Positions 1 through 42,847 of a stretch of 42,847 bases of DNA are shown piece after piece. The stretch spans positions 1-42,847 of IMG/VR virus record IMGVR_UViG_3300008450_000092; one strand, given 5' to 3'. The position numbers and the translations under genes are program-made. A model generated the notes under the pieces. The model did not search any database and was not told the origin of the DNA. It saw nothing but the letters and a program-made list of their open reading frames with translations. This DNA is from a virus. The number at the start of each line of letters is the position of its first letter. Position 1 is the first letter of the stretch.

Positions 1-708
1 TCTGGTACAACTGGAACTTCCGGATCATCTGGTTCATCAGGAACTTCTGGTTCATCAGGAACAACCGGATCATCTGGTTCAACCGGATCTTCAGGATCCT
101 CTGGCACATCCGGAAGCACGGGATCAAGCGGATCATCTGGTAGTAGCGGAAGCTCAGGATCTTCTGGTTCAACAGGAACTTCCGGAACTTCCGGAACCTC
201 AGCATCATCCGGTTCATCCGGCTCATCTGGATCTTCAGGAACGTCCGGGGCAACTGGAACTTCTGGATCGTCCGGAACTTCTGGATCGTCCGGATCTTCA
301 GGTCAATCTGGAACTTCTGGTTCGGCAGGTTCAACCGGATCCTCAGGATCTTCAGGTTCAACTGGAACGTCCGGTTCATCTGGAACCGGCGGATCTTCTG
401 GAACTTCTGGCTCATCTGGCTCATCTGGCTCATCTGGATCAACAGGTAGTTCCGGTTCTACTGGAACATCTGGATCATCTGGAACAACTGGTTCTTCTGG
501 TTCTTCTGGTTCATCCGGGAGAGATGGCTCTTCTGGAACATCAGGAGTTTCCGGAACATCAGGAGTTTCCGGAACATCAGGCTCATCAGGCTCATCAGGC
601 TCAACCGGAACATCCGGCTCATCAGGATCTACCGGGACCTCTGGTTCATCGGGATCTACAGGGACCTCTGGTTCATCGGGTACATCAGGTTCTGCTGGAT
701 CATCTGGT
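1..708 (+). repeat. Gly-X-Y (Ser/Thr) repeat block 1
   Basis: Nine-base period with Gly at every third codon. X and Y are Ser or Thr, with scattered Ala, Gln, Val and a GRDG unit near 520. Ser is spelled with all six codons, so the DNA is less repetitive than the protein. The block is cut by the window start. Confidence 0.95.
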
Positions 709-3700: not shown

Positions 3701-6700
3701 CAGGAACAGCAGGAACCTCCGGATCTTCTGGGTCTTCAGGTTCTTCTGGATCTTCGGGTTCATCAGGATCCTCTGGAACTACAGGTTCATCGGGCTCTTC
3801 GGGCACATCTGGATCAACAGGCTCTTCTGGAACTTCTGGGTCATCTGGTTCAACAGGTACTTCGGGATCATCTGGTTCAACCGGGACTTCTGGGACTTCT
3901 GGATCCTCTGGTACATCGGGTTCAAGTGGATCATCAGGATCATCTGGTTCAACTGGTTCTTCCGGCTCATCAGGTACATCTGGAACTGCAGGAACCGCAG
4001 GCACTGCAGGCACTGCAGGTTCTTCTGGAACAACTGGATCGTCGGGTACATCAGGATCGTCGGGTTCGAGTGGTTCAAGCGGATCAGGAGGATCATCTGG
4101 ATCATCAGGCTCAACAGGATCTTCCGGCTCAGCTGGAACATCTGGATCATCTGGGAGCACTGGCTCTTCCGGATCTTCAGGCTCGACTGGAACATCTGGA
4201 TCCTCAGGGTCAACAGGTACTTCCGGTTCATCAGGTACAACCGGATCCTCAGGAACGAGCGGTAGTACGGGATCTTCTGGATCTTCTGGATCTACCGGAA
4301 CGTCCGGATCCTCTGGTTCAAGCGGAACTTCGGGCTCTTCTGGATCTACAGGTTCTTCCGGATCAACAGGATCATCGGGTTCTACCGGTTCTTCCGGCTC
4401 ATCTGGTTCAACAGGAACTTCTGGCTCATCAGGTTCTACCGGAACTTCTGGTTCTAGCGGATCGACTGGTACTTCTGGCTCATCGGGATCAACTGGTACT
4501 TCTGGTTCATCTGGTTCTTCCGGCTCATCCGGTTCAACCGGCTCATCTGGTTCAACAGGATCCTCTGGCTCTTCAGGTTCTACAGGAACCTCTGGCTCTA
4601 GTGGTTCAACAGGATCCTCTGGCTCTTCAGGTTCTACAGGAACCTCTGGTTCTAGCGGATCAACAGGAACCTCTGGTTCATCAGGTTCTACCGGAACCTC
4701 TGGTTCTTCTGGATCAACCGGCTCATCAGGGTCTACTGGATCTTCTGGATCTACTGGAACATCTGGATCAACCGGCTCTTCAGGGACCTCTGGATCTTCT
4801 GGATCTACCGGAACATCTGGTTCTTCTGGCTCAACTGGCTCTTCCGGTTCTACTGGATCTTCGGGATCAACTGGAACATCTGGATCAACAGGTACCTCTG
4901 GATCAACCGGCTCATCTGGCTCATCTGGCTCATCCGGAACAACAGGATCTTCCGGCTCAGCAGGATCTTCGGGCTCAACTGGTTCTTCTGGCTCAACTGG
5001 TTCATCTGGAACTTCTGGATCTTCAGGATCTACTGGTACCTCAGGATCTTCTGGCTCAACAGGAACTTCCGGCTCTTCCGGCTCTTCAGGAACGTCTGGA
5101 TTGAGTGGAGACAGATATTTAACATCCTCAGTAACAAACCTAACTATAAGTTTAGGAACAAAAACATTGACCGTAGGGACCGGATTGGCTTATTCTGTAA
5201 ATCAGAGTGTAGACATTTCTTACGACACCAATAACTGGATGCATGGTGAAGTTTCTTCTTACAATTCGGGAACAGGTGTTCTTGTTGTTGTTATCACCAG
5301 CATTACAGGATCCGGTACCTATTCTTCTTGGATAGTTAATTTAGCCGGTGCAGTTGGACAAGCCGGTACCTCTGGTTCTTCCGGATCAACCGGAACTTCG
5401 GGATCTAGCGGTACCACCGGAAGCAGTGGTTCTACTGGCACTTCGGGTTCTTCTGGCTCAACCGGATCTACAGGTTCATCTGGTAGTTCTGGAACAAGCG
5501 GTTCTTCAGGAACTACCGGATCATCCGGTTCAACTGGATCATCCGGTTCAACTGGATCTTCTGGATCTACTGGTACATCAGGATCAACCGGATCATCTGG
5601 CACATCGGGATCTTCTGGGTCTACTGGCACATCAGGATCATCGGGATCTACTGGATCTTCCGGATCTACTGGTTCTTCTGGCTCAACTGGTACATCAGGA
5701 TCAACCGGATCATCTGGCACATCAGGATCTTCTGGGTCTACTGGTACATCAGGATCATCCGGTTCAACTGGATCATCTGGTTCAACTGGTTCTTCAGGAA
5801 CATCAGGAACATCAGGATCATCTGGTTCAACCGGTTCTTCGGGATCCTCTGGAACCACCGGATCTTCCGGATCGACGGGTTCTTCTGGTTCTTCTGGATC
5901 TTCAGGTACCTCCGGCTCTACCGGTACATCTGGATCAACAGGATCTTCCGGATCGACAGGTTCTTCTGGTTCTTCTGGATCTTCAGGTACCTCCGGTTCA
6001 ACAGGCACATCAGGAACTTCAGGTTCTACGGGTTCTACTGGATCATCTGGAAGCTCAGGATCAAGTGGATCATCCGGTTCAACAGGCACATCTGGTTCCT
6101 CTGGATCAACAGGTTCTACCGGATCATCTGGAAGCTCAGGATCAACCGGATCAACCGGATCTTCTGGATCAGCTGGTTCTTCTGGCTCAACAGGTACTTC
6201 TGGATCATCTGGATCCTCCGGTTCAACAGGAACTTCGGGTTCTTCAGGATCAACTGGTTCTTCAGGATCAACTGGTTCTTCAGGTTCTTCAGGCTCTTCT
6301 GGATCAACCGGATCTTCTGGCTCTTCTGGATCAACCGGAACATCAGGAACTTCCGGTATCGAAGGAAACGTCGCTATTTACAAATATAGTACAAACACAG
6401 GAAGCGGTGATCCAGGAAGCGGATATTTCAGATTTGTTGGACAGAATTGGACTTACGCAAATTCTTTTGTCATCAATATTGATGACGTATCATTTTCCCC
6501 AGGGGCTAATATTGGCACTCTATGGGATCTTTTGACAACCGGCAGTGGTAGTGGTCCTTTGCTAAACACAATCATCAAACTAGTCAAGAAGACCGATACC
6601 TCAATTTACAAGTATCTCAAGATTATCGATGCTAGCTCTGTTTCTGGATACGGAAGTTTCACTGTAGATGTTATATCTGTTAGTTCTTCATCAGCCAGCA

Positions 6701-13259: not shown

Positions 13260-15351
13260 TGGATGGGGAGCGGTTGAAAAAATTATTTGGGAATATCACA
13301 ATCAATCGATCAAGCTTGGCCATGGGTCAGTTATAAAGTATCTAGATGAAGTTAAACCAGGTGAACAAACCATAGTTCATGTGCACGTAGCCAATCTTGC
13401 AATCCTCTGCCACGAAAGAGGCATACCCTATATTTTCACGATGCATGATCACCATGCTCATCTTTATGGGAAGGACTCCCCGGTATACAAAGAGAATAAG
13501 AAAGCACTTAGAAATGCTTTAATTGGATTTGTACCAGCAAAATACCTAGTGAAATATTTTGGATACCCAAACATTGAGTATATGAGCCACGGGGTTAATA
13601 CAAGCTTCTTTTCATGCGAAAGGGATTACACAAACACCCAGCACAGTTTGTTATGCGTAGCAAACAATGGGTACATCCACGATCAGAGCTTTGACAGGAA
13701 GGGATTTTCCTTTGCACTCCAAGCCGCAGAAAAAATGAACCTCCCGATTACAATCTGCGGTCCTAGTAACAATAGATCGTTCTTTGAAAAATATCAGTGC
13801 TCGTACGATAAATTAACCATCAAATATGATCTAACTGAGGATCAGCTGGCGAATGAATATAAAAATCATACCATTTTTATCCACGCGTCAGAATTAGAAG
13901 CTGGCCATCCTAATTTAACTGTTCTCGAAGCAATGTCCTCAGGCTTGGTTGTCTTATCTACTTTAGAAGACGGACAGGATACACCTGGGTTAATTCGAAT
14001 AACTAGAGAATTGGAAGATATTGAGGACAAGATAAAAAATTCAATCAGTGATTTCGAAAACCTTTCTAAGAGATCAAGGGAGTGTGCAACGGAGCTAGAC
14101 TGGTCAAATGTTACCCAAAAATTGATTTCTAGGTACGAATCAATTTCATCGGAAACGATGAAAAAGTCTTTGGTTTATAATTACTCGATGACTCCGATCT
14201 CTTTCCGTGAAAAGAAAGAGCCTCAAAATACTTTCCACTATTCTTTCATAGAAAGCCCAAAATGTGAAATTTTAGGTCCGGTTTCAAAAGAATATCTGGT
14301 TAAATTCGTAGACCACGATACAAACGAGGTTGTCTACGTAAGCTCAATTAAAAACAACTGCTGGGCGGCGGCTTCCAAAAAATACTTTATTAACTGGAGG
14401 ATTGAGGTTTATGACGGGGAGGAAATAGTGGATCAACATGTTTTTGATGCAACGGATAAGAGGGTGTATATCCACATCGATTCTAAAGCTCTCGGAGACA
14501 CGATAGCATGGTTCCCATACGTTGAAGAATTCAGAAAGAAGCACAATTGCAAAATAGTATGTTCAACCTTCTGGAATGATCTTTTCAAAAATTCATATTC
14601 TCACTTCGAATTCACACCTCCCGGATCAACAGCCCATGGATTGTATGCGATGTATTCTGTTGGCTGGTATTATTTTGAAAATGGATCACTAGATTACGAT
14701 AAGAATAAGAGAGACATTAAGAAAATACCGCTGCAGCAAACAGCTACGGATTTTCTTGGATTAGACTTCACAGAAGTCCGACCGATGATAGATCTACCTA
14801 TAGAGAGAAGACATGTTGCTGGTGATTATGCATGTATCGCTCCACACGCTTCGTCCCATGCAAAATATTGGAACAGAAAGGGGGGATGGCAAAAATTGGT
14901 TAATTGGTTCAATGATCAAAAAATACTTCCGGCTATGATCACACACGAGCCTTTGGGTGATGACTGGCATGATTCTAAGCTAGGTGGCAAACTTAAAAAT
15001 GTAGTGGATAGGACTGGGAATTTCCCGATAGAAAACAGGATCAACGAGATCATTCACTCAAAAATTTATGTTGGGCTAAGTTCCGGTCTCAGCTGGTTAG
15101 CTTGGGCTTTAAATAAACCTACTGTTGTCATTTCAGGATTCACTGAAGAATTCCTTGAACCTTCTTCTGTTATCAGAATCATTAATAAAGAGGTCTGTCA
15201 CGGATGTCAAACCGAATTCAAATTAGATGCTGGCGATTGGGAATGGTGCCCTAGAAATAAGGGGACGGAGGATCAATTTATCTGTACTAAGGAAATAAGC
15301 TCCGAATCTGTTATAGATGCTATTGTTAAAAGCGGAGTCCTAGATATATAG
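13213..15351 (+). CDS. GT4 fused to GT9/BAHT-type protein O-heptosyltransferase
   Basis: The ATG at 13213 overlaps the previous gene by 47 bases. It gives a typical GT4 start, MKIIQVTPGLLPIPPNGWG. Residues 1-310 or so are GT4, with the E-x7-E stretch ELEAGHPNLTVLEAMSSG. Residues about 417-712 match the GT9-like O-heptosyltransferases of bacterial autotransporters (Aah/TibC, BAHT family): RVYIHIDSKALGDTIAWFPY, IAPHASSHAKYWNRKGGW, GLSSGLSWLAWAL. Four cysteines (662, 665, 679, 691; C-x2-C then C and C) sit where family members have an iron-binding cysteine motif. Those enzymes transfer heptose to serines of repetitive adhesins, so this is the strongest sign that the cassette modifies a protein rather than lipid. 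The GT4 half may extend the glycan. Ends in LDI-TAG, which also forms a GATATATAG box. Confidence 0.8.
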   Translation: MKIIQVTPGLLPIPPNGWGAVEKIIWEYHNQSIKLGHGSVIKYLDEVKPGEQTIVHVHVANLAILCHERGIPYIFTMHDHHAHLYGKDSPVYKENKKALRNALIGFVPAKYLVKYFGYPNIEYMSHGVNTSFFSCERDYTNTQHSLLCVANNGYIHDQSFDRKGFSFALQAAEKMNLPITICGPSNNRSFFEKYQCSYDKLTIKYDLTEDQLANEYKNHTIFIHASELEAGHPNLTVLEAMSSGLVVLSTLEDGQDTPGLIRITRELEDIEDKIKNSISDFENLSKRSRECATELDWSNVTQKLISRYESISSETMKKSLVYNYSMTPISFREKKEPQNTFHYSFIESPKCEILGPVSKEYLVKFVDHDTNEVVYVSSIKNNCWAAASKKYFINWRIEVYDGEEIVDQHVFDATDKRVYIHIDSKALGDTIAWFPYVEEFRKKHNCKIVCSTFWNDLFKNSYSHFEFTPPGSTAHGLYAMYSVGWYYFENGSLDYDKNKRDIKKIPLQQTATDFLGLDFTEVRPMIDLPIERRHVAGDYACIAPHASSHAKYWNRKGGWQKLVNWFNDQKILPAMITHEPLGDDWHDSKLGGKLKNVVDRTGNFPIENRINEIIHSKIYVGLSSGLSWLAWALNKPTVVISGFTEEFLEPSSVIRIINKEVCHGCQTEFKLDAGDWEWCPRNKGTEDQFICTKEISSESVIDAIVKSGVLDI
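15343..15351 (+). promoter_or_regulatory. GATATATAG box (possible late promoter)
   Basis: The box overlaps the last codons of the glycosyltransferase. Its TATATA starts 17 nt before the ATG at 15362. Chance from coding (Asp-Ile-stop) is possible, so confidence is lower than for the intergenic copies. Confidence 0.35.
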
Positions 15352-20968: not shown

Positions 20969-22891
20969 ATGACCAAAAGAAAAAAGAAAGATCCATTCAA
21001 ACCCCAGGTAGAATTGCCTACACCCAAGGTAACAGTTTTTGGGAAACCTGCTCCCAGCAGTACGATTTCTCCGGGACAGGCTGACGATAATGTTTGGAAT
21101 TCCGAGAAGGTTGATACAATTCTGAGAAAAGCCGATGAGGAAGGATTGGATTTTAAAAAGATCCCAAATCCATTCTTTGACGCCAATCCGGAATTTAAAG
21201 CACCTAATATAATTTGGGAGTATACCCCTGAAGAGCTGGAAGAAATTAGAAAATGTAAAAACGACGCAGTTTATTTTTCTAGATATTGCCAGGTCATGAC
21301 TGACGAAGGACTTGCATACATCAGACTCCGTGATTATCAGGAGGACATTATCAAGACATATCAGCAAAACAGATTCTCTATATTCTTAGCACCTAGACAG
21401 ATCGGTAAGTCAATCACTTCAGCTATCTTTTTGGTCTGGTACCTTCTCTTTAATTACGACAAGAACGCGATGATCTTGGCTAACGTTGGAGACACAGCGG
21501 AGGAATTAATGGATAAGGTCAAAGCCATCGTTAGAGGATTGCCTTTCTTCCTAAAACCTGGAATGATAGTGAACAACGTAATGTCGATGAAGTTTGATAA
21601 CGGGTGCAGAGCGATCGCGAAGACCACGACAAAGACTTCTGCGATTGGTTTTACTATACACTTTCTTTACATGGATGAGTTTGCACACATCCACCCGAAT
21701 TTCATAGAATCTTTTTTCAGATCAACATATCCTACGGTTTCATCGTCTAAAGTGTCAAGAATCATTATTACATCGACACCGAACGGGATGAATAAATTTT
21801 ATGATCTTTACCAGGATGCGGTAGAGGGGACAAACACCTTCTACCCATTAAGAGTTGATTGGTGGCAAATACCTGGTAGAGACGAGGAGTGGAGACAGAA
21901 AGAAATAGCTAACCTTGGTTCGGAAGAACTTTTCAACCAGGAATATGGAAATCAGTTTCTGAGTTCGTCTTCTTTATTACTTGATTCAAAAGATCTAAAG
22001 AAGGTTAAAAATTCAGGTTATGAGTATTTCTGGAGAGAGGTAGAAGCATTAAACGACCGTGAATTGAATTACGAATATCTCACGTGGCATCCTAAATTTG
22101 ATTACGACAATCCGGTTGGACCAGGTAAAAGATACGTTCTGAGCGTAGATATAGCATCGGGTAACAAGGGGGATTTTACCGTTGTGAATTTCTTCAAAGT
22201 TATTCCTTTACCGAAACACGTGATTGAAAGCATGCAAGAAAATGACTATCAGGACGAGACTGATTTTTTTGGCGTGCTGCAGATAGGGATTCTCAGGGAC
22301 AACACGATGAAACTAGACGAACTGAAGTCTTTCTTGGAAGCGATGTGTCTAGATTACTTTGGACCCGATAACGTCAAGCTTTTAGTAGAGATGAACTTCA
22401 AAGGCGAACTATTATTCGAAAAGTTAGTTTCTAATGAAGATTTTTACGAGGAAATTTTTATCTTCACAAAGCAGTCCGAGAATTCGAGACAGATGAAGCC
22501 TGGTATTAGATATACCAATGATAAGATAAAAATGAAATATTGCGAGAATTTGAGGACGTACATTAAACGGAATAGAATTTTTATCAACGATTCTAAAAAT
22601 ACAATTCCCGAATTATTATCTTTTGGAATGAATAACCGGGGATCGTATTCTGGTATGGGCTCCCATGATGACGTAGCCATGACAGTTGTAAACCTTGGGG
22701 CTTTGTTTGAATCTGATGAGTTTTCGCAGCTAGCTGGAGAGGTATATGACGAGCTAGAAAATTTATCTTACAAAGATCTTATTGAATCTAAATTAGAATC
22801 AGGCGAATCCCAATCACCCGATCCATGGGGAAGACCCACCTATAACACCAAGCAGGGTGGTGCTTTCAAAAATTTTAATGATTTGATGTAG
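20969..22891 (+). CDS. gp17: Terminase large subunit (packaging ATPase and nuclease)
   Basis: 640 residues, close to T4 gp17 (610). The ATPase domain has the adenine-binding and Walker A stretch FLAPRQIGKSITSA (about residues 137-150) and Walker B FLYMDEFAHI with Asp-Glu near 236-237, then the coupling motif IITSTPNG. The RNase H-fold nuclease has its acidic triad in VLSVDIASGNKGDFT (Asp about 394), LLVEMNFKGE (Glu about 474) and GSHDDVAM (Asp about 567-568). It powers DNA translocation into the prohead through the portal and cuts concatemers. It follows the probable small terminase, with two late-promoter-like boxes and the sheath gene next. Confidence 0.97.
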   Translation: MTKRKKKDPFKPQVELPTPKVTVFGKPAPSSTISPGQADDNVWNSEKVDTILRKADEEGLDFKKIPNPFFDANPEFKAPNIIWEYTPEELEEIRKCKNDAVYFSRYCQVMTDEGLAYIRLRDYQEDIIKTYQQNRFSIFLAPRQIGKSITSAIFLVWYLLFNYDKNAMILANVGDTAEELMDKVKAIVRGLPFFLKPGMIVNNVMSMKFDNGCRAIAKTTTKTSAIGFTIHFLYMDEFAHIHPNFIESFFRSTYPTVSSSKVSRIIITSTPNGMNKFYDLYQDAVEGTNTFYPLRVDWWQIPGRDEEWRQKEIANLGSEELFNQEYGNQFLSSSSLLLDSKDLKKVKNSGYEYFWREVEALNDRELNYEYLTWHPKFDYDNPVGPGKRYVLSVDIASGNKGDFTVVNFFKVIPLPKHVIESMQENDYQDETDFFGVLQIGILRDNTMKLDELKSFLEAMCLDYFGPDNVKLLVEMNFKGELLFEKLVSNEDFYEEIFIFTKQSENSRQMKPGIRYTNDKIKMKYCENLRTYIKRNRIFINDSKNTIPELLSFGMNNRGSYSGMGSHDDVAMTVVNLGALFESDEFSQLAGEVYDELENLSYKDLIESKLESGESQSPDPWGRPTYNTKQGGAFKNFNDLM

Positions 22892-26408: not shown

Positions 26409-26966
26409 ATGGCAGGTTTACCACATTATTCAAATTCGTCTTCGGCGATAAATCTCTACGAACCAGTATATCTCAACCAGTTTGAGGTTCTGATCGTTCC
26501 ACCCGCTGCGGTTGGAGGAGGAGAATTATTGTTGCAACACGTTAAGTCGCTGAGCGGATTAACACTGGATAAAACTCCAGAGCCTATCTCACAGAAGTAT
26601 AAGTTCGCAAAAAGAAACTATGCAGGGGGCAAACCAACCAACACATACATGGATGTTCTGATGAGCTTTACAGTTAACTTGAATGAGACTAACTCAATGT
26701 ACGTGTTTAAAACCCTTCGTCAATGGAGTGATTTGATCTACAATCCATTAACAGGAGCGCAGGGTTTGAAAAGAGATTATGTTGGTTCTATGACAATCAG
26801 CATGTTCAATAAGCAAGGAGACGTTTACAGAAGAGTGAGATGTATCGATTGCTTCCCAACCAAAGCGATTTCTGCAATGAACCTTAACTATGACGAGGGT
26901 GAAGCAGTTTTCGAGATTACTCAGTTTGGATGGGCAGTAGATTATTGGGAGGATTTATTCCTATAA
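26409..26966 (+). CDS. gp19: Tail tube protein, copy 1
   Basis: 185 residues (T4 gp19 is 163). It has the T4-type tube pattern: AGLPHYSN start, NQFEVLIVPP, LRQWSDLIYNPLTGAQG, YVGSMTISMFNKQGDVYRRVR, and a terminal FGWAVDYWEDLF. Hexamers of this fold stack to form the inner tail tube through which DNA passes. It is followed 20 bases later by a close paralogue. Which copy builds the main tube is not clear from sequence. Confidence 0.88.
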   Translation: MAGLPHYSNSSSAINLYEPVYLNQFEVLIVPPAAVGGGELLLQHVKSLSGLTLDKTPEPISQKYKFAKRNYAGGKPTNTYMDVLMSFTVNLNETNSMYVFKTLRQWSDLIYNPLTGAQGLKRDYVGSMTISMFNKQGDVYRRVRCIDCFPTKAISAMNLNYDEGEAVFEITQFGWAVDYWEDLFL

Positions 26967-26986: not shown

Positions 26987-27565
26987 ATGGCAGGATTACC
27001 ACATTTCACAAATTCAAAAGCCGGGCTTTTCAACTACGAACCGGTTTATTTGAATCAGTTTGAGGTTCTTATAACACCTCCCGCAGGTATTTCTGCGGCT
27101 GGAATCACCTATAAGGGTGAGTCTATTTTGACCCAGCAGATTAAAAGCGTTGAAGGACTAGCTGTTGATATAGCTCCGGCAACACCAGTTGAACAGAAGT
27201 ATAAATTTGCTTCCAGGAGATATGCTGGTGGTGAACCATCTACTTCAGATCTGAGCTTTTCCACTGCATTTGAGGTTAACTTGGATGACACAAATTCGAT
27301 GACAGTTTACAAGATATTGAGACAGTGGGCGGATTTAATCTATAATCCATTAACTGGAGCGATGGGATTAAAAACCGATTACGTTGGATCCATGCTTATC
27401 TCTGTCTTCAATAAAAGAGGTGATGTTTTTAGAAGAATAAGAATTCCATCTTGCTTTATCGCATCGAGTATAAATGAGATGCCTTTATCCTACGATCAAG
27501 GTAACGCTATCTATACTGTGACGATCGAATGGAAAGCGGATTATTGGGACGACCAGTTCTTATAA
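26987..27565 (+). CDS. gp19: Tail tube protein, copy 2
   Basis: 192 residues, clearly paralogous to the previous gene. It shares the AGLPHFTNS start, YLNQFEVLITPPAG, ILRQWADLIYNPLTGAMG, DYVGSMLISVFNKRGDVFRR and the end WKADYWDDQFL. Main differences are an insertion near residues 30-45 and a different C-terminal strand. No box of its own beyond ACATAAATAATGG at the start, so it is probably co-transcribed with copy 1. Could be a tube-terminator-like or baseplate-proximal variant. A strong terminator follows. Confidence 0.88.
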   Translation: MAGLPHFTNSKAGLFNYEPVYLNQFEVLITPPAGISAAGITYKGESILTQQIKSVEGLAVDIAPATPVEQKYKFASRRYAGGEPSTSDLSFSTAFEVNLDDTNSMTVYKILRQWADLIYNPLTGAMGLKTDYVGSMLISVFNKRGDVFRRIRIPSCFIASSINEMPLSYDQGNAIYTVTIEWKADYWDDQFL

Positions 27566-34586: not shown

Positions 34587-35279
34587 ATGTCTGCAACCGG
34601 AGCAAGTTTAGAAGATGCCCAATTTTATTGGGATGGCGGTAGTTCATCGAATGCCGTTGATCCCGGGTTTACCACTACCCTGTATGGTGGTAGTGATCAA
34701 TATGCTCTGGCGCCTGGTGCATCAGCCAGCACCGATATCCGATATCGGAACGTAGCCCTTGTTAGGGAGCAGATAAAACTTGTCGGACTTACACTTCAGG
34801 ATTATAACGATCCCAGAGAATTTAAGTTCTTCAACACTAGTTTCAATATATCTTATCAGGCTCAGACCGAAGAGAGGGTGGATGTTACCAACTTTTTCCA
34901 TCCCCTTCAGAATTTTTCATCTTGGCAAAAGCAAACCGTGGTATTATCACCTCTGAGTTCAATTAACCTTGATCCTGGTGATTTTGATAATACAAAGGGT
35001 GAAATCAGTTTTATGCTTGTTAAGCCCATCTATTCTCCCGAAGCTGCTGACGACGAGAAGATCTGCTTTTGGAACTATAAGGGAACACAAAGATTCTTGA
35101 TTGGATCCATTCTGGTACTTTCCGGAGCGATTAAAGATGGCTACAAATGGAAGGGATGGTCGGTAAGTCCATTCCCTGACGAACTTCAAGAAGGAGATCC
35201 GGATCCCACTCTAGGCGGATTTATTTTTTCTAATCCAACGAATAAATCTGTAAAATTAATAATACTAACAGCAACCTAA
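34587..35279 (+). CDS. Virion-like beta protein, paralogue 1
   Basis: 230 residues, beta-rich, no signal peptide. The C-terminal half (FWNYKGTQRFLIGSILVLSG, then GGFIFSNPTNKSVKLIILTA) matches that of the next gene, so the two are paralogues. The N-terminal part (about 1-110) is its own. The stop shares a base with the next ATG (TAATG), indicating coupled translation. A decoration or fibre-attachment protein fits the composition. No family recognised. Confidence 0.6.
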   Translation: MSATGASLEDAQFYWDGGSSSNAVDPGFTTTLYGGSDQYALAPGASASTDIRYRNVALVREQIKLVGLTLQDYNDPREFKFFNTSFNISYQAQTEERVDVTNFFHPLQNFSSWQKQTVVLSPLSSINLDPGDFDNTKGEISFMLVKPIYSPEAADDEKICFWNYKGTQRFLIGSILVLSGAIKDGYKWKGWSVSPFPDELQEGDPDPTLGGFIFSNPTNKSVKLIILTAT

Positions 35280-35767
35280 TGGCAACAAGACCACCAGTTT
35301 GTCCGCCCACCCAAGTCCCTGGGCTGGCTTTTAACAGAACAGCTTTAGTCGAGGTTTCGTCTGATGGCAACTATGATCCCAATCCTCTTGTTGAACTCAA
35401 GGATTTTGGGATGGAAGTAAAATCATTTTCGCACCTTAGAATTTCACTAGCTGAAAGTAAAAGCTATCTTCTCTCACAAACAGATATCGGAGACGATTTC
35501 GGTTACGAAAGTTTTGTGTTAATCAAGGTAACCTATCCGGAGGACGTACCACAAACCAAACGTTATTTAGAATGGGAGTACAACGGAGCAAGTTTTTATA
35601 TTGGGGAACTTATGATTCTAACCGGAAAAAGAACATCTTCAATTGATGCTAAACAGCTTGGTTGGAACATATCAGCGGATGATGTTTTCTATAAGGGGGG
35701 AGGTATCATCTTTACCAATCCACATTCCAATATCAAAGTTAAGCTAGAAATCCTAGTAGCTAGATAA
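35279..35767 (+). CDS. Virion-like beta protein, paralogue 2
   Basis: 162 residues, starting in the TAATG overlap. It aligns with the C-terminal part of the preceding protein: WEYNGASFYIGELMILTG and GGGIIFTNPHSNIKVKLEIL. Its N-terminus is Pro-rich (TRPPVCPPTQVPG). Equal production through coupling suggests the two form a hetero-oligomer. Unknown function. Confidence 0.6.
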   Translation: MATRPPVCPPTQVPGLAFNRTALVEVSSDGNYDPNPLVELKDFGMEVKSFSHLRISLAESKSYLLSQTDIGDDFGYESFVLIKVTYPEDVPQTKRYLEWEYNGASFYIGELMILTGKRTSSIDAKQLGWNISADDVFYKGGGIIFTNPHSNIKVKLEILVAR

Positions 35768-35846: not shown

Positions 35847-38651
35847 ATGAATCTAATCGATAAAATTAAACAACTCAGAGATGTTACTAAATCTCCAGAG
35901 GTAAAAGAAATTTGCGAAAATTTCCTTTCCGGAAATTCGATCCCGGTAAAAGACCACGATATGTTGATGGAATCTGTTAAAGAAATGGAATCACCTGCAC
36001 AGCCACAAGTTTCTTCACAACATGATCTTCTAAGTGCTTTGCGCCAAGGAGAAATCGACAAGTCTAAAGGATTTGCAAGCAAATTAATGGAAAGCTGGGG
36101 CGGTTTGGACCACTCTGGAAGAGCTTACAAACAAGCCGGTGTTTATGGTTCCTATAAGGACGGATTCGATAAGAATAAGAAAGAGGATCAAAAACCTGAA
36201 GAGGTTTTATCATTGCTCGAAAGTCACTCAGAGACTGATGCACACGTTGCTTCTTTATTGGCTTCTCAGAAAACGGAAGATCTCGGTCTTAAAAAGACCT
36301 TGAGAGTTTTCGAAGGTGCTGGTATTTCTGGTCACCCTGCGGTAAAAAGCTTGATGCATAAATATTCATCTCTTTTAGAGCAGAATAGATTGCCCGAGTA
36401 TATCGTTTTGGAATCTTTTGTGAATGAATTCGCAGGCTTTGACTGGGATTCTACAGTAAAGTCTGAATTAGGTAAAATCGCAAAAACAACTAGCTCATTG
36501 AAGAATGAGATTGAAGTTGCAAAAGCAGTATATCACATCAAAGCATCTGACCCAACTAATTTCTATGTAAAGGTAGTTGAGAGCTTGAATTCTTGGTTAA
36601 TCTCTGAAGAGAAATCAGTAGGTTTGTTAACTAAGGATCTTTCAAGATGGCAGTTCAACCCGATCGTTCAGAAGTTGGTACACACTTTGAAAATCAACGA
36701 ATCTGCTGGTGGATTACACCTCACTAAGAAGCAGGGAGAATCTGAAGTTAATAAGATTTACTCTCCTGTTTTAACTAGAGAAGGTAGATTAACTTTCCAA
36801 ATGTCTGGTTCTATCTTTGAAGCTTCTGCTGAAGGAGTTAAAAGATTGAAGAGCTCAGAGATTGAAGCACTTCCTATCGATTACAAGAATTTGTTAGAAA
36901 GCTTCAATAAGGAATTCGTTAAATTGAACGAGACTGGAGTAAATTTCTACATTTCTAAAACAGCTATCAAATTGGTAGAAGCTGAGTCAGCTCCTGCAGT
37001 TTTCATGAACGGTGTTAAACTCCGTTTCAATGACATGAACGAATTGGGCAGAATCTTACACCTTGAATTCTCTTCTATTCCTGGAGTAAATGCAGCGGCT
37101 ATCACAAAGGATGTGATCAACGTTTACGAGTCTTTTGATAAGATCGTAGAATTGGACATCGCCAAAAATATTTCTTCTAGAATTTATGAAGGTTTATCAG
37201 TAAACTTGATCAAGTGGAAGAACCAAGTTTATGTACAGAGAATCAACGAAGGAATGAAAGAAGATTCTTTCTTGAAAACTAGTGGCACACAAGCAATGAA
37301 AATTGTTAAAGATCTTTTGAGATTTGATATCTCTGAAGGTTTAAGCCAATTCTTGGAAGGCGAGAATAAATTGAGAGCAGTTATGGTTAACGACCGTAAC
37401 AAGGTAATCGAAAACATTTCAATTGTAGAAAAAGAAATGAAGAAATTGGAAGCATTAGTTGCTACCAATAAACTTTATGAGTCATCTCCACAAATCAAAG
37501 CAGCTTATGCCCAATTGACCAAAGAATTAGATTCTTTGAAAGAGAAATGGTCTGCTATCAATTCAGAAATGGAGAAATTCGATAATGGATACCAAGAGTT
37601 GGATATGCTCGAAGAAGGAAAATACTCAATCGGAGATTACGTGAGAGTAAAAGAGTCTGGAGATAATGGTAAAGTTATCTCAATTGATTCTTCTTCAGGA
37701 TCATACGTTGTCATGATGAATGACGGCAAAACTGGTGAATATCGTGTAGACGAAATCGAAGATATGGAATCAGCTATCAGCAAAGCTAAAGACGATAACG
37801 AAATTGCAGCTGATGAGGATCCTAACTACGATCCAATGCAGTTGGATGATCAGCCTGAAGAAGTTAAGGAATCTCAAGAAACCTACGCTAAAGCACCAGG
37901 CGAAGCTAAAATGGCTAAAGACGATTCAGCTACCGAAAAAAGAGCTGAAAAATTGATGTCTGATGCTCCAAAGGACGAAGAGGTACAAGATAAAACTTCA
38001 AAGAAAGATGTTGAAAATCAAAAGGTAGCTCAGTTAGCTGATGCTCCTGAAGGATCAGAAAAAGAAACTAAATACGAAGCATCTCCTGAAATTGGATACA
38101 ATTTGAGAGAGGGTGAAGATATTTCTAAAGAAGATCCAAATTTGGCTGAAGCACCTAAATCTTCTTCTCAAGAAAAATCTGGTGAAGAATTCATCGAGAA
38201 TGTTGCTGATCAGAATTTAGCTAAAGCACCTGGTAAAGAAGGTGATATCGGTTATTCAGTAGATAAAGAGAATGGATACAATTTGGATGAAAAGGCTGAA
38301 ATCGCTGGTGATCCTCACTTGGCGGTAGCACCAGACCCAAAAGCTCCTGATATCTTCGGTGTTGAAAAAATCGGCGATCAGAATTTAGCTAAAGCACCTG
38401 GTAAAGAAGGTGACATTGATTATTCAACAGATAAAGAAAGTGGATACAATTTAGATGAAAAAGCTGAGATTGCTGGTGATTCTAATATGGCGGTAGCTCC
38501 AGAAGCTAAGGCTGGAAGCGAATCTGCTCCTGAAAAAGTAGGAGATCAGAATTTGGCTGAAGCACCTGGTAAAGAAGGAGACATCGATTATTCAGTAGAT
38601 AAAGAAAACGGTTATAACCTTGACGAATCTGACGAGGTAAAAAAAAACTAA
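35847..38651 (+). CDS. 934-residue repeat-tailed protein, probably virion; ends at an A9 slippery site
   Basis: In the zero frame the protein stops right after AAAAAAC-TAA. Residues 1-590 or so are helical and charged (SLLESHSETDAHVASLLASQ; YSSLLEQNRLPEYIVLESF). A KOW/SH3-like segment follows at about 592-640 (GDYVRVKESGDNGKVIS, GKTGEYRVDEIED). The C-terminal 250 residues are acidic and repetitive: a unit of about 55 residues built on DQNLAKAPGKEGD and ENGYNLDEKAEIAG occurs three times, plus weaker xAxAP units before. Doublet late-promoter boxes suggest high late expression, so an internal head or scaffold-type protein is plausible. The repeat theme continues after the stop in the -1 frame (see 38639-38809). 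No family recognised. Confidence 0.75.
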   Translation: MNLIDKIKQLRDVTKSPEVKEICENFLSGNSIPVKDHDMLMESVKEMESPAQPQVSSQHDLLSALRQGEIDKSKGFASKLMESWGGLDHSGRAYKQAGVYGSYKDGFDKNKKEDQKPEEVLSLLESHSETDAHVASLLASQKTEDLGLKKTLRVFEGAGISGHPAVKSLMHKYSSLLEQNRLPEYIVLESFVNEFAGFDWDSTVKSELGKIAKTTSSLKNEIEVAKAVYHIKASDPTNFYVKVVESLNSWLISEEKSVGLLTKDLSRWQFNPIVQKLVHTLKINESAGGLHLTKKQGESEVNKIYSPVLTREGRLTFQMSGSIFEASAEGVKRLKSSEIEALPIDYKNLLESFNKEFVKLNETGVNFYISKTAIKLVEAESAPAVFMNGVKLRFNDMNELGRILHLEFSSIPGVNAAAITKDVINVYESFDKIVELDIAKNISSRIYEGLSVNLIKWKNQVYVQRINEGMKEDSFLKTSGTQAMKIVKDLLRFDISEGLSQFLEGENKLRAVMVNDRNKVIENISIVEKEMKKLEALVATNKLYESSPQIKAAYAQLTKELDSLKEKWSAINSEMEKFDNGYQELDMLEEGKYSIGDYVRVKESGDNGKVISIDSSSGSYVVMMNDGKTGEYRVDEIEDMESAISKAKDDNEIAADEDPNYDPMQLDDQPEEVKESQETYAKAPGEAKMAKDDSATEKRAEKLMSDAPKDEEVQDKTSKKDVENQKVAQLADAPEGSEKETKYEASPEIGYNLREGEDISKEDPNLAEAPKSSSQEKSGEEFIENVADQNLAKAPGKEGDIGYSVDKENGYNLDEKAEIAGDPHLAVAPDPKAPDIFGVEKIGDQNLAKAPGKEGDIDYSTDKESGYNLDEKAEIAGDSNMAVAPEAKAGSESAPEKVGDQNLAEAPGKEGDIDYSVDKENGYNLDESDEVKKN
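38212..38632 (+). repeat. Three tandem protein repeats of about 55 residues
   Basis: Units begin DQNLAKAPGKEGDIGYS, DQNLAKAPGKEGDIDYS and DQNLAEAPGKEGDIDYS. Each is followed by DKE-x-GYNLDE. The DNA is similar too, which suggests recent duplication. Confidence 0.88.
38639..38648 (+). promoter_or_regulatory. Candidate -1 frameshift or slippage site (A9 run with A-AAA-AAC)
   Basis: A run of nine A (38639-38647) then C. In frame it reads AAA-AAA-AAC-TAA, so the canonical heptamer A-AAA-AAC (38642-38648) sits directly before the stop at 38649. A -1 shift, or loss of one A by polymerase slippage, opens the frame to 38809. Confidence 0.6.
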
Positions 38652-38809
38652 ACCGTAACTTCGCATCTGCTCCTACAAACCCAGATCAGAATAAAAGTCC
38701 ACAGCCTGACGTAGAAGATATCACAGGAAAATTTGCCAAAGCACCAGACGGGAAACCTAGAGTTGGTGTAATAGGTCAAGATTTAGGCGTTGATAATTCT
38801 AAAGACTGA
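38648..38809 (+). CDS. -1 frame C-terminal extension of the 934-residue protein
   Basis: After a -1 shift at the A run the reading continues LNRNFASAPTNPDQN and later ITGKFAKAPDGKPRVG, ending VDNSKD at TGA 38807-38809. The FASAP and FAKAP units continue the xAxAP theme of the upstream repeats, so this is the natural C-terminus, about 53 residues more. It has no start codon of its own, and the terminator comes 28 bases after its stop. A sequencing error in the A run would give the same picture. Confidence 0.6.
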   Translation, partial: LNRNFASAPTNPDQNKSPQPDVEDITGKFAKAPDGKPRVGVIGQDLGVDNSKD

Positions 38810-38836
38810 AACTTAGAAAAATTTTAAACTATAAGG

Positions 38837-38870
38837 ATTGTCCGGTTCAAAAAAAGCCGGACAATTCTTT
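38837..38870 (+). terminator. Intrinsic terminator
   Basis: 9-bp stem ATTGTCCGG/CCGGACAAT (38837-38845 with 38857-38865), an 11-nt A-rich loop, then TCTTTT. It ends the transcript of the repeat-tailed gene. Confidence 0.85.
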
Positions 38871-38889
38871 TGCATAAAAAAACATATTA

Positions 38890-39249
38890 ATGGCCAAAAT
38901 CTACGTCAAAAATTCGGATCTTATGAGAGCAATCAAAGAATCCAAAGAAAAAGGCCATCTGACAAACGAGACAATTTCCATGTTTCTTCTTATGACGGAT
39001 GGTATATCAAAAAAGATGGCTTATAAAGACGAGGAGGACAAGCAAGACTGCATCGCTTTCGCATTGGAAGACCTTTGTAAATATTGGGACCGATTCGATC
39101 CTAATAAGTCAAACAACCCATTCGCATATTTTACCCAGATCGCCAAAAACGGTTTTGCTAAGGGCTGGAAAAAGATTCACCCACCCAATGCTCCCAAAAC
39201 CATACCATTCAGTTCTATCACTGGCGACGAAAACACCTATAATGTATAA
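38890..39249 (+). CDS. gp55: T4 gp55-like late sigma factor
   Basis: 119 residues. It follows the T4 gp55 pattern: KNSDLMRAIKESKE (gp55 NNKELLQAIIDWK), TNETISMFLLMTDGISKKMA (gp55 [20 protein letters not shown]), DCIAFALEDLCKYWDRFDP (gp55 EMIADGIEASIKGLHNFDE), NNPFAYFTQIAKNGFAKGWK (gp55 [20 protein letters not shown]). In T4, gp55 carries a region-2-like core and reads only the -10 TATAAATA, helped by the gp33 co-activator and the gp45 clamp. This copy is shorter (gp55 185 residues) and lacks most of the C-terminal tail, where the clamp-binding motif lies. It is the best candidate reader of the GATATATA boxes in this window. Confidence 0.75.
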   Translation: MAKIYVKNSDLMRAIKESKEKGHLTNETISMFLLMTDGISKKMAYKDEEDKQDCIAFALEDLCKYWDRFDPNKSNNPFAYFTQIAKNGFAKGWKKIHPPNAPKTIPFSSITGDENTYNV

Positions 39250-39269
39250 TAGGCAAATTTCTATATCGA

Positions 39270-39277
39270 GTATATAG
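39270..39277 (+). promoter_or_regulatory. GTATATAG box before the gp4 gene
   Basis: In the 34-bp gap between gp55-like and gp4 genes; TATATAG starts 13 nt before the ATG at 39284. Short-spacing class. Confidence 0.45.
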
Positions 39278-39283
39278 AATATC

Positions 39284-39769
39284 ATGTCGATTAAGAAAGT
39301 CAAGCCTAACGGATCTTTCATATCCGGTAAATTTATTCCGAAGAACCCGTCTAAGTATATCGGCGATATCAACAACATTATCTGTCGTAGCTCTTGGGAG
39401 ACACGTTTTTGCAATTTTTGCGACTCGAACGAAAAGATCCTGAAATGGAGCTCTGAGCCGATCGGTATTCAGTATTACAGCAAGCTAGACAATAAAGTTC
39501 ATACCTACTATGTAGATTTCTATATTAGAGTGGAAAGGCATGATGGGAAAGTGGACGAAATGATATTGGAGATCAAACCGCAACGGCAAACCAAAAAACC
39601 GATTCTTGAATCACAGAACCCGACAGCAAAAGCTCTTAAAGCTCATAACGAGCGATTAAAAGTTTGGATAACGAATATGTCAAAATTCGAAGCGGCAAAA
39701 GAATGGGCAGAGAAAAGAGGGTTTAGATTTGCTATTGTTGACGAAAATTTTCTATTTAAGAATAAATGA
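39284..39769 (+). CDS. gp4: Head completion protein, T4 gp4-type nuclease
   Basis: 161 residues (T4 gp4 150). It matches the gp4 family: KYIGDINNIICRSSWETRF, CNFCDSNEKILKWSSEPIGI, VHTYYVDFYIRV, MILEIKPQRQTKKP. The acidic residues Asp78 and Glu96-x-Lys98 form a PD-(D/E)XK-type site, as in TnsA-like nucleases. In T4, gp4 with gp50 finishes the filled head before tail joining. It overlaps the next gene by ATGA and lies two genes from the portal. Sure of family; the exact reaction in head completion is not settled even in T4. Confidence 0.9.
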   Translation: MSIKKVKPNGSFISGKFIPKNPSKYIGDINNIICRSSWETRFCNFCDSNEKILKWSSEPIGIQYYSKLDNKVHTYYVDFYIRVERHDGKVDEMILEIKPQRQTKKPILESQNPTAKALKAHNERLKVWITNMSKFEAAKEWAEKRGFRFAIVDENFLFKNK

Positions 39770-40347
39770 TAGATTTCGAAACTGCCATCAGGGATTTTCT
39801 TTCCCAATTCACTTCAACATCATCTGCATCACAATCTGCTAATACAGATTTTGGAGCGAGCTATTATAGTGCTTCTAAAAATATAGGGTGGACAGAGGTC
39901 AAAGCTGGCAGAATCTATACATTTGATTATCCGATTAAATCACCAGAAGAATCGACATCGTCTTTCGTAGATCGTCGGCCTATACTTATGATAATACCAA
40001 CACCAGCAAATTATCCGAAAGGTAAAATAGTTGGATTAGATCTGGTTTTGCTCAGACCTGATTTGAGAGGTAATCTTCTCAGAAATCTATCCTCTGTGGT
40101 TGGCCTGATGTTTAAAGACGGAACCGTTGCTAACGAGCAGGAGGTTTTGGATAAATTGTCAAGAATAAATATAAACTTCGCTAAAACACTTCTATCTGGG
40201 TTTCCAGTTGAAAAGATAGTTAAAGGTTATGATATCCGTTATATTCCAGGCCTGATCGAGATAAAAATCGCCGACTGGGTGAAAATCCCATACCTAAGCG
40301 ATTTCAAAATTGATGGGACCACTCCCAATAGGATATATAATAGCTAA
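39766..40347 (+). CDS. Hypothetical protein coupled to gp4
   Basis: 193 residues beginning in the ATGA overlap. A Ser/Thr/Ala-rich linker (about 10-35) is followed by a compact domain: KAGRIYTFDYPIKSP, DRRPILMIIPTPA, GKIVGLDLVLLRPDLRGNLL. This pattern (short beta barrel, then the Leu-Arg helix) recurs in T4-like virion genes next to gp4 and portal, but I cannot name the family with confidence. Likely a head or baseplate component. A GATATATAA box overlaps its last codons. Confidence 0.6.
   Translation: MIDFETAIRDFLSQFTSTSSASQSANTDFGASYYSASKNIGWTEVKAGRIYTFDYPIKSPEESTSSFVDRRPILMIIPTPANYPKGKIVGLDLVLLRPDLRGNLLRNLSSVVGLMFKDGTVANEQEVLDKLSRININFAKTLLSGFPVEKIVKGYDIRYIPGLIEIKIADWVKIPYLSDFKIDGTTPNRIYNS
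40332..40340 (+). promoter_or_regulatory. GATATATAA box upstream of portal
   Basis: Within the end of the preceding gene (codons for Arg-Ile-Tyr-Asn). Its TATATA starts 61 nt before the portal ATG, longer than other boxes. It may be a promoter for portal or chance. Confidence 0.4.
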
Positions 40348-40394
40348 GAAGTTGGAATTATTTTGTTTATTGCAACTAAAATGTAACAACCCGA

Positions 40395-42029
40395 ATGGCA
40401 GGATTTGTAGATAACTCAAGACAGTCACCGATTACTCAGAGAATTCGTGATAGCGTAAAATCATTATCGAATTTCGGAATGCGGTATGAGGACCTGGTGA
40501 TTAAAAATTCACAGGCCATTGGATCGACCGAGGCGATATTTCTCAAGAAATATCCTATAGAGGATGAAGCTACTCTGTATTCACTTGCTAAACAGGATAC
40601 ACAAACAAAGCAATTCATTTCTTATTTCGATAAAGATTACAAGGGAAAAAGAGAATTTTTAAGAAAATTCGCCCTTAACTCTGAAATAGACTATGTGCTC
40701 GATCTGGTAGCAGATGAAGCAGTCACATACGATCCGCAGAATTTCTTTGCATATCCATCTTTCATCCACTTTACGGATGTATCGGATAAGCTCATGAATA
40801 GTGTGAATTCCTCCTATAAGAAATTGTACGATGTTTGGGGATTCACTGATGACATCTCAGCCTGGCAATTGTTTAGACAATTCCTCGTTGAAGGATTCCT
40901 TTCCTTTGAGATAGTCTATTCTGATAATGGAAAGGATATAATAGGATTCAAAGAGCTTGATCCTATAACTCTACAGCCCAGCGTCGAAAAACAACCTAAT
41001 GGAACTTATTTAAACATCTGGGTCCAGTATCCTGAGGACGATAAGAAAAGAAGAATACTATACGATTCCCAGATCATCTACATCTCCTATGCAAAGGGTA
41101 ATTCTGTTTCAAGAATTTCCTATGTCGAAAGATTGATCAGACCATACAACGTTCTCCGAATTATGGAGTACACCAGAATCATTTGGTCTGTGATGAATGC
41201 TTCTTTCAGACTGAAAATGACCATCCCAGTTGGAACCAAATCTCCACAGAAGGCCATGCAAACTCTTGGAGAATTAATGTCTATCTATAAAGAGGACATT
41301 AAGTTTAACGATGACACTGGAGAACTTTTGGTCGATGGAAGACCAAAGATTCAATTCTATAAGAACTATATGATGCCCTCCGGCACAAATGGGACTCCAA
41401 CGATCGAGCCTGTTAATATTGCCGGTCCGAATCTTTCCGATACCCAACCAATCCAATACTTCTGGGAAAAATTCATAGAGGAAACAAAAATTCCGATCTC
41501 ACGCTTTGCTGGTCCTGACTTTGTACCTCAAGGAGTTATTGGTACTGCTGCAGAGGGATTGGACAAGGATGAGATTAGATTTTCTAAATTCATCAACCGT
41601 TTAAGATCAGTGTTTCAGGACATTATGATCAAACCTCTTTGGCTACAACTTTGCCAAGAGCATCCAGCTCTGAAAAATGATTTCTCATTCAAATCACAGC
41701 TTGGTCTTAACTACGTAACAGAAAATCCATTCAGCTTAAATCAAGAAATCGAAGTATTAACTAAGAAAAAAGAAACGATTGTGGCAATGACTGGATTAAC
41801 TGACGATTTCGGAAATCCTTACTTCTCTGTTGACTTCTTAATCAAAAACTATTTGGGAATGTCAGAGGATGACTTAAAGGAAAATAGAGAGGTTAAGAAA
41901 AAGATCGATAAGGAGAAGAAGAAATTAGAGAAAGAAGGAGGAGGAGAAGGAGGAGAAACAACGTCAGCAGGATTTGGTGAAGCACCTGTTGAGGAACCAG
42001 AAACGCCCACCGAAACAGCACCCGAATAA
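40395..42029 (+). CDS. gp20: Portal vertex protein, copy 1
   Basis: 544 residues (T4 gp20 524). The T4-type portal pattern is clear: YFDKDYKGKREFLRKFAL, SEIDYVLDLVADEAVTYD, QLFRQFLVEGFLSFEIVY, FKELDPITLQP, QIIYISYAKGN, RPYNVLRIMEYTRIIW, NASFRLKMTIPVG. The portal dodecamer starts head assembly, docks the terminase and is the DNA channel. The C-terminus is a Lys/Glu/Gly-rich acidic tail. A second, homologous portal-like gene begins two bases after the stop. Confidence 0.95.
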   Translation: MAGFVDNSRQSPITQRIRDSVKSLSNFGMRYEDLVIKNSQAIGSTEAIFLKKYPIEDEATLYSLAKQDTQTKQFISYFDKDYKGKREFLRKFALNSEIDYVLDLVADEAVTYDPQNFFAYPSFIHFTDVSDKLMNSVNSSYKKLYDVWGFTDDISAWQLFRQFLVEGFLSFEIVYSDNGKDIIGFKELDPITLQPSVEKQPNGTYLNIWVQYPEDDKKRRILYDSQIIYISYAKGNSVSRISYVERLIRPYNVLRIMEYTRIIWSVMNASFRLKMTIPVGTKSPQKAMQTLGELMSIYKEDIKFNDDTGELLVDGRPKIQFYKNYMMPSGTNGTPTIEPVNIAGPNLSDTQPIQYFWEKFIEETKIPISRFAGPDFVPQGVIGTAAEGLDKDEIRFSKFINRLRSVFQDIMIKPLWLQLCQEHPALKNDFSFKSQLGLNYVTENPFSLNQEIEVLTKKKETIVAMTGLTDDFGNPYFSVDFLIKNYLGMSEDDLKENREVKKKIDKEKKKLEKEGGGEGGETTSAGFGEAPVEEPETPTETAPE

Positions 42030-42031
42030 CA

Positions 42032-42847
42032 ATGGCAGGATTTTTAGATCAAAATACAGATAGAAGCTCGGTCTTCAGCCGAATTTTCCAGACACTTAGC
42101 AAACTGGGAAATCTCGGTATGGAATATGATGACATGATCATACGTAACTCCCAGGCTATTGGAAGAACAGAATCTGCTTTTTTTAATCAGGAGGATTCCG
42201 GCTACACTGACAATGCCGCTTTTCGATGGACTACTAATTATCAGGACATCAAAACGCGTAAATACATCGCATACTTCGATAAAGATTACCCAAGCAAGAT
42301 AAATTTTTTAAGAAAATTTTCATTGAATGGCGAGATCGAATTTATCCTCGATACAATATGCGATGAGGCGATAGTTTACGACGACCGCAATTTCATAGCA
42401 TATCCTCAGCTTCAGAATGTGGAGATGAAGGAAAAAGTACTGGATTCGCTTAGCGATAACTTCAAACAAATATACATGCTATTGGGATTCCAAAACGGGA
42501 TAACTGCTTGGCAATATTTTAGGCAGTTTTTGGTTGAGGGATTTCTTGCTTTTGAAATAGTTTATGATGACAAGGCAAAGAATATAGTTGGATTCAAAGA
42601 ACTTGATCCAACATCATTGGAGCCAAGAACAGCAACAGATCCGGACGGAACTTTCAAGCAGATCTGGGTTCAGTATCCTAACGACAATAACATGAGACGT
42701 ACGCTCACAAACGAGCAGGTCATTTACATCTCTTATGCTAAGGGGAACACGATTTCTAGGGTTTGTTATTTGGAGAGACTGATAAGATCGTACAACATTT
42801 TAAGGATTATGGAGAACACCAGAATCATTTGGAATGTTATGAATGCT
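42032..42847 (+). CDS. gp20: Portal protein, copy 2 (3' end outside window)
   Basis: Open from ATG 42032 to the window end (272 codons), in a different frame from copy 1. It starts MAGFLDQNTDRSSVFSRI and tracks copy 1 throughout: YFDKDYPSKINFLRKFSL, AWQYFRQFLVEGFLAFEIVY, FKELDPTSLEP, IWVQYPNDNNMRR, VIYISYAKGNTISR, ENTRIIWNVMNA. An insertion after the RNSQAIGRTESAFF segment distinguishes it. The reading frame and key segments are intact, so it is not a pseudogene within view. The two copies could form a mixed ring or be stage-specific. Confidence 0.9.
   Translation, partial: MAGFLDQNTDRSSVFSRIFQTLSKLGNLGMEYDDMIIRNSQAIGRTESAFFNQEDSGYTDNAAFRWTTNYQDIKTRKYIAYFDKDYPSKINFLRKFSLNGEIEFILDTICDEAIVYDDRNFIAYPQLQNVEMKEKVLDSLSDNFKQIYMLLGFQNGITAWQYFRQFLVEGFLAFEIVYDDKAKNIVGFKELDPTSLEPRTATDPDGTFKQIWVQYPNDNNMRRTLTNEQVIYISYAKGNTISRVCYLERLIRSYNILRIMENTRIIWNVMNA

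Follow-up and report, generated by a model that had tools for sequence, protein, structure and literature searches.

Two complete T4 gp20-type portal genes kept side by side in a clade of large T4-like phages

Two adjacent portal genes

The window considered here, that is, the whole stretch of 42,847 nucleotides from the virus record IMGVR_UViG_3300008450_000092, ends with two neighbouring genes, A and B (Table 1), which encode full T4 gp20-type portals, the ring by which viral DNA passes into and out of the capsid; their products are otherwise typical gp20-family members. Phage genomes usually carry a single PF07230 portal gene, although that trait is not strictly defining, and these phages depart from it; wherever related contigs can be judged, the pairing of A with B is invariable. 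The novelty lies in this fixed portal pairing, and in the possibility that the two proteins form a mixed ring.

Table 1. Portal genes and other features of the window discussed in the text
Feature	Coordinates	Strand	Basis or remark
Portal A, first T4 gp20-type portal, 544 aa	40395..42029	+	PF07230, phrog_213, Foldseek
Two-base spacer, A stop to B start	42030..42031	+	ORF positions
Portal B, second T4 gp20-type portal	42032..42847	+	residues 1-272 of 527; window ends inside B
gp2-like DNA end protector, adjoins portal A upstream	39766..40347	+	phrog_429 E 2e-5, weak
gp4-like head closure protein, TnsA-like nuclease domain	39284..39769	+	phrog_218 E 1.8e-45; PF08722 E 1.9e-19
Tail tube T1, gp19-like	26409..26966	+	phrog_45 E 7.6e-10; phrog_32623 E 5e-37
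Tail tube T2, gp19-like	26987..27565	+	phrog_45 E 1.7e-10
Terminase large subunit, single (control)	20969..22891	+	phrog_5989 E 2.9e-52

Both ORFs begin with ATG, and the frame of B, opening at 42032, stays open up to the end of the window, with 272 amino acids visible. As an earlier sequence-only reading had stated, B starts two bases 3' of A, which ends at 42029. Over 273 aligned columns the visible part of B is 52% identical to A (BLASTP E 1e-102), a likeness that far exceeds chance. The full-length B, of 527 amino acids, is found at 3517-5100 of contig L003, which matches window positions 38516-42847 at 99.7% identity and spans both the window end and contig L109, the start of which overlaps the window end by exactly 114 bases; B is thus whole, and the early truncation that the same reading had considered does not occur.

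Pfam, PHROGs and Foldseek agree for A and B, which upholds the earlier description of two full-type portals. Against PF07230 (Portal_T4; curated cut-off 22.9 bits) A scores 207.7 bits (E 3.6e-61) and complete B 230.4 bits (E 4.4e-68), and both match the portal family phrog_213 (A, E 3.8e-58; B, E 1.7e-64). The top Foldseek matches in the PDB are T4 gp20 chains (A, E 1.2e-19; B, E 3.5e-21), with TM-scores to the T4 chains of 0.43-0.62 for AlphaFold monomer models that were made from 39-row alignments and are of moderate quality (mean pLDDT 70.1 for A and 68.4 for B). Each protein can be aligned to T4 gp20 over residues 70-524, and clip, stem, tunnel loop, wing and crown are present in both alike, the T4 domain limits being those given in PMC4493910. 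A and B therefore share family and fold with T4 gp20 (PF07230; 3ja7, 6uzc, 9mkb), but T4 has one portal gene in the corresponding stretch where these phages have two, always adjacent where judged. An insertion near residue 50, also reported by the sequence-only reading, is real but small: in the interval bounded by a conserved GM and a conserved D, at positions 28 and 68 in A and 29 and 72 in B, B is only three residues longer.

An assembly artefact or chimera is ruled out by the same gene order in contigs with many different IMG dataset numbers, and by the near-identical repetition of the window end in L003. Nor is either copy a pseudogene, since both are full length with dN/dS of 0.014-0.043. 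An apparent open frame of about 1,119 amino acids suggested a fusion of the portal genes in genomes G020 and G024, which was rejected because the ORF lists show two portal genes in a common frame, separated by a stop and a 3-base spacer.

Conservation of the pair among relatives

For each set of relatives, the contigs examined are those that ranked nearest. Clade 1 comprises 87 distinct contigs (L003-L096 minus 7 repeats), from a search that took the best 80 of 117 relatives; other searches took the best 80 of at least 582 and, for the tail tube, the best 80 of 110. In clade 1, A is accompanied by a complete B in 78 of the 87 contigs and by a B cut by the contig end in 7, while 2 are unjudgeable, one stopping right after A and one beginning at B; none of the 87 has room for B yet lacks it. 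Near copies are common, such that the 83 loci with both genes complete (contig repeats included) hold 58 distinct A and B protein pairs, in which the spacer ranges from -1 to 23 bases. A deeper clade 2 was reached via its tail tube gene and then searched with its first portal. Here both copies occur in 30 of 32 contigs (L320-L351), the other 2 ending before B, and no contig among the 32 was judged to lack B; the spacer is 2-6 bases. One copy is cut by a contig end in 10 of the 30 paired contigs, or 11 if L351 is counted, where the first copy is only a 289-amino-acid ORF near the contig start. Both copies are thus present and adjacent in 85 of the 87 clade-1 and 30 of the 32 clade-2 contigs, and the remaining four are unjudgeable; this refutes the suggestion that the pair might not be conserved.

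Whole records give the same picture. Among 30 records searched with Pfam, each of the 16 from clade 1 (109-430 kb, with several near copies among them) has exactly two portals, against a single one in 13 of the 14 others; the fourteenth, LR756501 (735 kb), has one portal and a short C-terminal fragment. G001 (373,485 bases) has just two portals; its two ends share an exact 127-base repeat, which a complete circular assembly would show. Outside the paired clades, 96 of 113 loci (on 93 contigs) are single portals with at least 400 bases on each side, 14 lie too near an end and 3 are in two pieces (L115, L116 and L174). L103 is a single portal near the paired clades; L203 cannot be called single because its contig ends 90 bases past the portal.

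The statement in the sequence-only reading that T4-like phages normally have one gp20 agrees with a collection of annotated phages, in which portal A matched 2,327 records at 2,329 places; every record has one match save two, both 735,411 bases long, which have two. One of these two is LR756501, whose second Pfam match is the short C-terminal fragment already mentioned, a stray piece at 15166-15351 from the C-terminal part of the portal family. Among more distant phages, LR756500 (462 kb) has a single portal 45% identical to A, the Lak phages a single portal 35% identical, and Sphingomonas phage PAU and Tenacibaculum phages PTm1 and pT24 single portals 26-31% identical; all have a tail tube homologue, with one portal and one tube match per record. 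Among the listed titles and abstract openings of open-licence PubMed Central papers on portals and tail tubes, none reported paired or mixed portals. PMC7162821, on huge phage clades, mentions the portal twice, in neither place with regard to gene copies, and contains no word beginning with duplicat- or paralog-.

Some portal genes in these sets are interrupted. In L070, one of the 78 contigs with a complete pair, an in-frame TAG at 6601-6603 lies inside portal A and could be an error, a nonsense change or recoding. In L115 and L116 (Lak-A1 and Lak-B5) the single portal is fragmented under table 11, with 6 and 9 TAG codons within the match, consistent with the recoding of TAG in these phages. 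The single portal of L174 is likewise in two pieces.

Origin and selection

Phylogenetic analysis indicates that A and B arose by one tandem duplication that is older than the split between the two clades. In a rapid tree built from 98 proteins (A and B from 28 loci each, and 42 single portals), all A sequences form one group (support 100), all B sequences another (100), and A and B come together (99); excluded from it were near copies, loci where either copy is incomplete, and L001, L002, L070, L109, L115, L116 and L174. In a more careful tree of 18 A, 18 B, 9 first and 9 second copies from clade 2 and 22 single portals, the first copies of clade 2 join A (100/99) and the second copies join B (99/97). 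Approximately unbiased (AU) tests, on groups picked after the tree had been seen, reject A and B as one clade (p 0.0002) and the clade-2 copies as one clade (p 0.0001). Independent duplications in clades 1 and 2 are rejected by these tests (p about 0.0002), and, together with the trees, they point to a single event before the clades separated.

Since then neither A nor B has been lost from any judgeable contig. Their subtrees have 19 of 26 groups in common; the 7 groups seen for A only have support of at most 87, and some conflict with B groups supported at up to 98. Subtree lengths are similar, at 5.8 for A and 6.4 for B. Values of dN/dS were 0.014-0.043 in 11 of 20 comparisons, those in which they could be computed, with synonymous sites near or beyond saturation throughout; for 6 of the 10 genome pairs, including the window's own lineage, no value was computable for at least one copy. 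Where computable, these values show strong selection on both genes. The short spacer makes it very likely that A and B are read from one transcript with coupled translation.

Divergence between the copies

Identity between A and B is unevenly distributed over the portal domains. It is highest in the first stem helix (74%), in helix 8 with the second part of the wing (59%), in the clip (58%) and in the wing (56%), and lowest in the second stem helix (30%), the tunnel loop (30%) and the crown (31%). The crown is variable within each copy as well as between them. The second stem helix and tunnel loop, which we call the gate region, are conserved within each copy (means 77-88%), and the clip is well conserved in both, with 52 and 48 of its 81 columns at 90% or more.

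Measured as divergence beyond the variation within each copy, the excess between A and B in the gate region, which was picked after the data had been seen, is 1.9 times the mean and is reached by 6 of 525 circular shifts. Controls were mixed. Two single-portal clades of equal overall divergence, S1 and S2, gave 1.17 times the mean (189/524 shifts), and S1 against S3, another single-portal clade, gave 1.65 (47/545). Comparisons of B with S2 and S1 gave 1.45 (8/522) and 1.35 (26/528), those of A with S2 and S1 gave 1.32 (36/513) and 1.05 (203/522), and splits within A and within B gave 0.88 and 0.63. The gate region thus tends to diverge between subfamilies generally, and most strongly between A and B. 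When clade 2 is added, the excess is 0.134 in the gate region against a mean of 0.047 (29/522 shifts), and a clean split by copy is seen at only 8 positions, of which the gate region holds 3. Fisher tests on groups of domains give p of about 0.002 each; the groups were chosen after the domain table had been seen and the second test omits the crown, and so we give the shift tests more weight, albeit less with clade 2 included. Taken together, the comparisons are suggestive of a peak in divergence between A and B at the region that would gate the DNA.

A further difference concerns the C-terminus. The motif [VIFA][TK][LIF], a pattern defined after the data had been seen, is found at the end of one copy or both in 37 of 40 paired representatives: both copies in 14, the first only in 14 (12 of which are the clade-2 representatives), the second only in 9 and neither in 3. 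It occurs in none of 42 single-portal representatives. The window's own lineage (L003 and L083) has it on neither copy. This distribution would fit a signal that is required somewhere in the ring and not on each subunit. The likeness of the C-terminus of A to that of its own B was reached in 0 of 5000 shuffles, by a statistic that ignores relatedness.

Doubling of other genes

The tail tube is doubled as well, a feature that the sequence-only reading of the portal pair does not mention. T1 and T2 are adjacent genes with 55% identity, and, with T1 as query at E 1e-5, a search in which very diverged second copies in distant phages could escape, the tube was doubled in all 14 paired-portal records with a match (2 of the 16 had none) and single in all 12 other records with a match (2 of the 14 had none). 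In the separate tube scan, which took the best 80 of 110 relatives, the pair is seen at 75 of 79 loci, and contig ends truncate the remaining 4. In the tube tree the T2 sequences group together with modest support (79/83) whereas those of T1 do not resolve, and the timing of the tube duplication is accordingly less sure than that of the portal.

In the records tested, doubling does not extend to the large terminase or to the full-length capsid protein. The terminase was sought in 14 records in all; of 11 with paired portals, 8 have one match, 2 have none and G003 has one strong match with a weak one elsewhere. PAU has one match, and LR756500 and LR756502 have several partial ones. These pieces, at 193359-197776 of LR756500 (W01) and 202567-204543 of LR756502 (W02), suggest a gene interrupted by an intron or intein, or split. 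For the gp23-type capsid protein, each of the 16 clade-1 records has one strong full-length match. A second, shorter gp23-like match occurs in 7 of the 16, which are the 7 of at least 250 kb; in G001 this is a gene of about 300 amino acids at 242314-243219, far from the capsid gene, and it is matched also in G002, G003, G004, G006, G007 and G008.

Doubling is not special to the DNA channel, since G001 has 7 groups of tandem paralogues in all, portal and tube included. In the window, the adjacent ORFs at 34587-35279 and 35279-35767 are related to each other (30% identity, E 3e-9) and have no PHROG match; their counterparts are adjacent in G001 too, with no mutual match there at E 1e-5.

A possible mixed ring

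In the T4 portal the wing contacts the capsid, and the clip docks the terminase and the neck. We propose that, in the ancestor of a clade of large T4-like phages, the portal gene was duplicated in place, and that A and B, very likely encoded on a common transcript, have since become specialised partners that would join in one mixed ring at the sole portal vertex. The simplest form would be six A-B dimers in a 1:1 ratio, a ring that is about 12-fold overall with an exact symmetry of 6-fold, matching the six-fold parts below the portal. Two types of DNA-gate loop could then alternate from subunit to subunit, and the ring might encode in its sequence a two-state or six-fold arrangement. We favour this reading, to which we give roughly even chances, because the wing and clip have stayed more alike than average while the gate region has diverged, because A and B are probably made together and are never lost in contigs that can be judged, and because these phages also double another ring protein of the channel, that of the tail tube. 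Several points count against it: the fixed adjacency of A and B also suits two separate homomeric rings, the gate region diverges between other portal subfamilies too, the C-terminal motif is missing from both copies in the window's own lineage, G001 has tandem paralogues outside the channel, and T4 gp20 forms and works as a homododecamer (PMC4493910). PMC7136217 describes how the twelve identical portal subunits of T4 make local adjustments to a five-fold capsid, and C6 was the symmetry in which recent structures of T4 portal-neck complexes were determined (PMC12270204). An extension of the mixed ring to the whole DNA channel, in which six A-B dimers with alternating tunnel loops would stand above a tail tube of two proteins, seems to us less likely than not.

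In the nearest competitor of the mixed ring, A and B would each form their own 12-mer in different particles or at different stages, for instance in two virion classes that differ in both portal and tail tube. Both proteins are complete, with all portal domains and under similar selection, and two tube genes co-occur with two portals, all of which such phages would show; the strong full-length capsid match is nevertheless single in 16 of 16 clade-1 records, essentially one terminase is seen in each of the 9 paired-portal records with a match, and, with at most 23 bases separating A from B, a promoter would not fit in the gap. We consider separate homomeric portals unlikely, although a stage switch between A and B, raised in the sequence-only reading, may exist. 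The same reading had thought of a division into neck-side and head-side portals, and for this we found no specific support, as clip, stem, wing and crown are kept by both proteins. That retention also speaks against another proposal, that one copy forms the true portal ring and the other is an accessory, such as a stacked ring, an assembly initiator or a part of the vertex outside the channel. The C-terminal motif does sit on different copies in different subclades, and the N-terminal arms differ by the short insertion, as an accessory role might predict, but neither copy evolves much faster and the clip is conserved in both; we judge this decidedly less probable than separate portals. Least credible is a dosage effect, by which interchangeable copies would be kept simply to supply more portal. 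The above-average identity of A and B in wing and clip (56-58%) would agree with interchangeable subunits, yet A and B were already separate groups when the two clades diverged and have stayed so, no judgeable contig has lost either, and the demand for portal, at twelve subunits per virion, is small. Redundancy of this kind appears very improbable.

Two known cases are comparable in part. In T4 the capsid gene has been duplicated to give gp23 and gp24, which are specialised within one head, gp24 forming the pentamers at the other vertices; A and B are likewise duplicates of a structural gene, with the difference that the doubling affects the ring protein of the unique vertex. The rings of MCM2-7 and Rpt1-6, set against their homomeric archaeal counterparts, show paralogues retained together, the end state that we propose for A and B; those mixed rings are known, whereas that of A and B is a prediction. 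PMC7136217 describes the portal as a 12-fold ring in tailed phages and herpesviruses alike, and its fit into a five-fold capsid vertex is a long-standing question. If the mixed ring is real, these phages would have a portal with 6-fold symmetry built in, unlike the 12 identical subunits of other known portals. A clade with two distinct adjacent portals is in any event a natural experiment on which parts of the subunit are fixed and which are free to differ, and provides a genetic handle on individual positions of the ring. The accompanying doubling of the tail tube suggests that the change may concern the entire DNA channel.

Neighbouring genes

Upstream of portal A lie genes matching a DNA end protector and a head closure protein (Table 1). 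The DNA end protector assignment has a parallel in Tenacibaculum phages PTm1 and pT24, where an annotated DNA end protector also stands 5' of the single portal. The gene before it encodes a head closure protein resembling gp4. At the other end of the window, positions 1-8718 form an open frame of 2,905 amino acids, cut by the window start, with long Ser/Gly/Thr repeats at its beginning.
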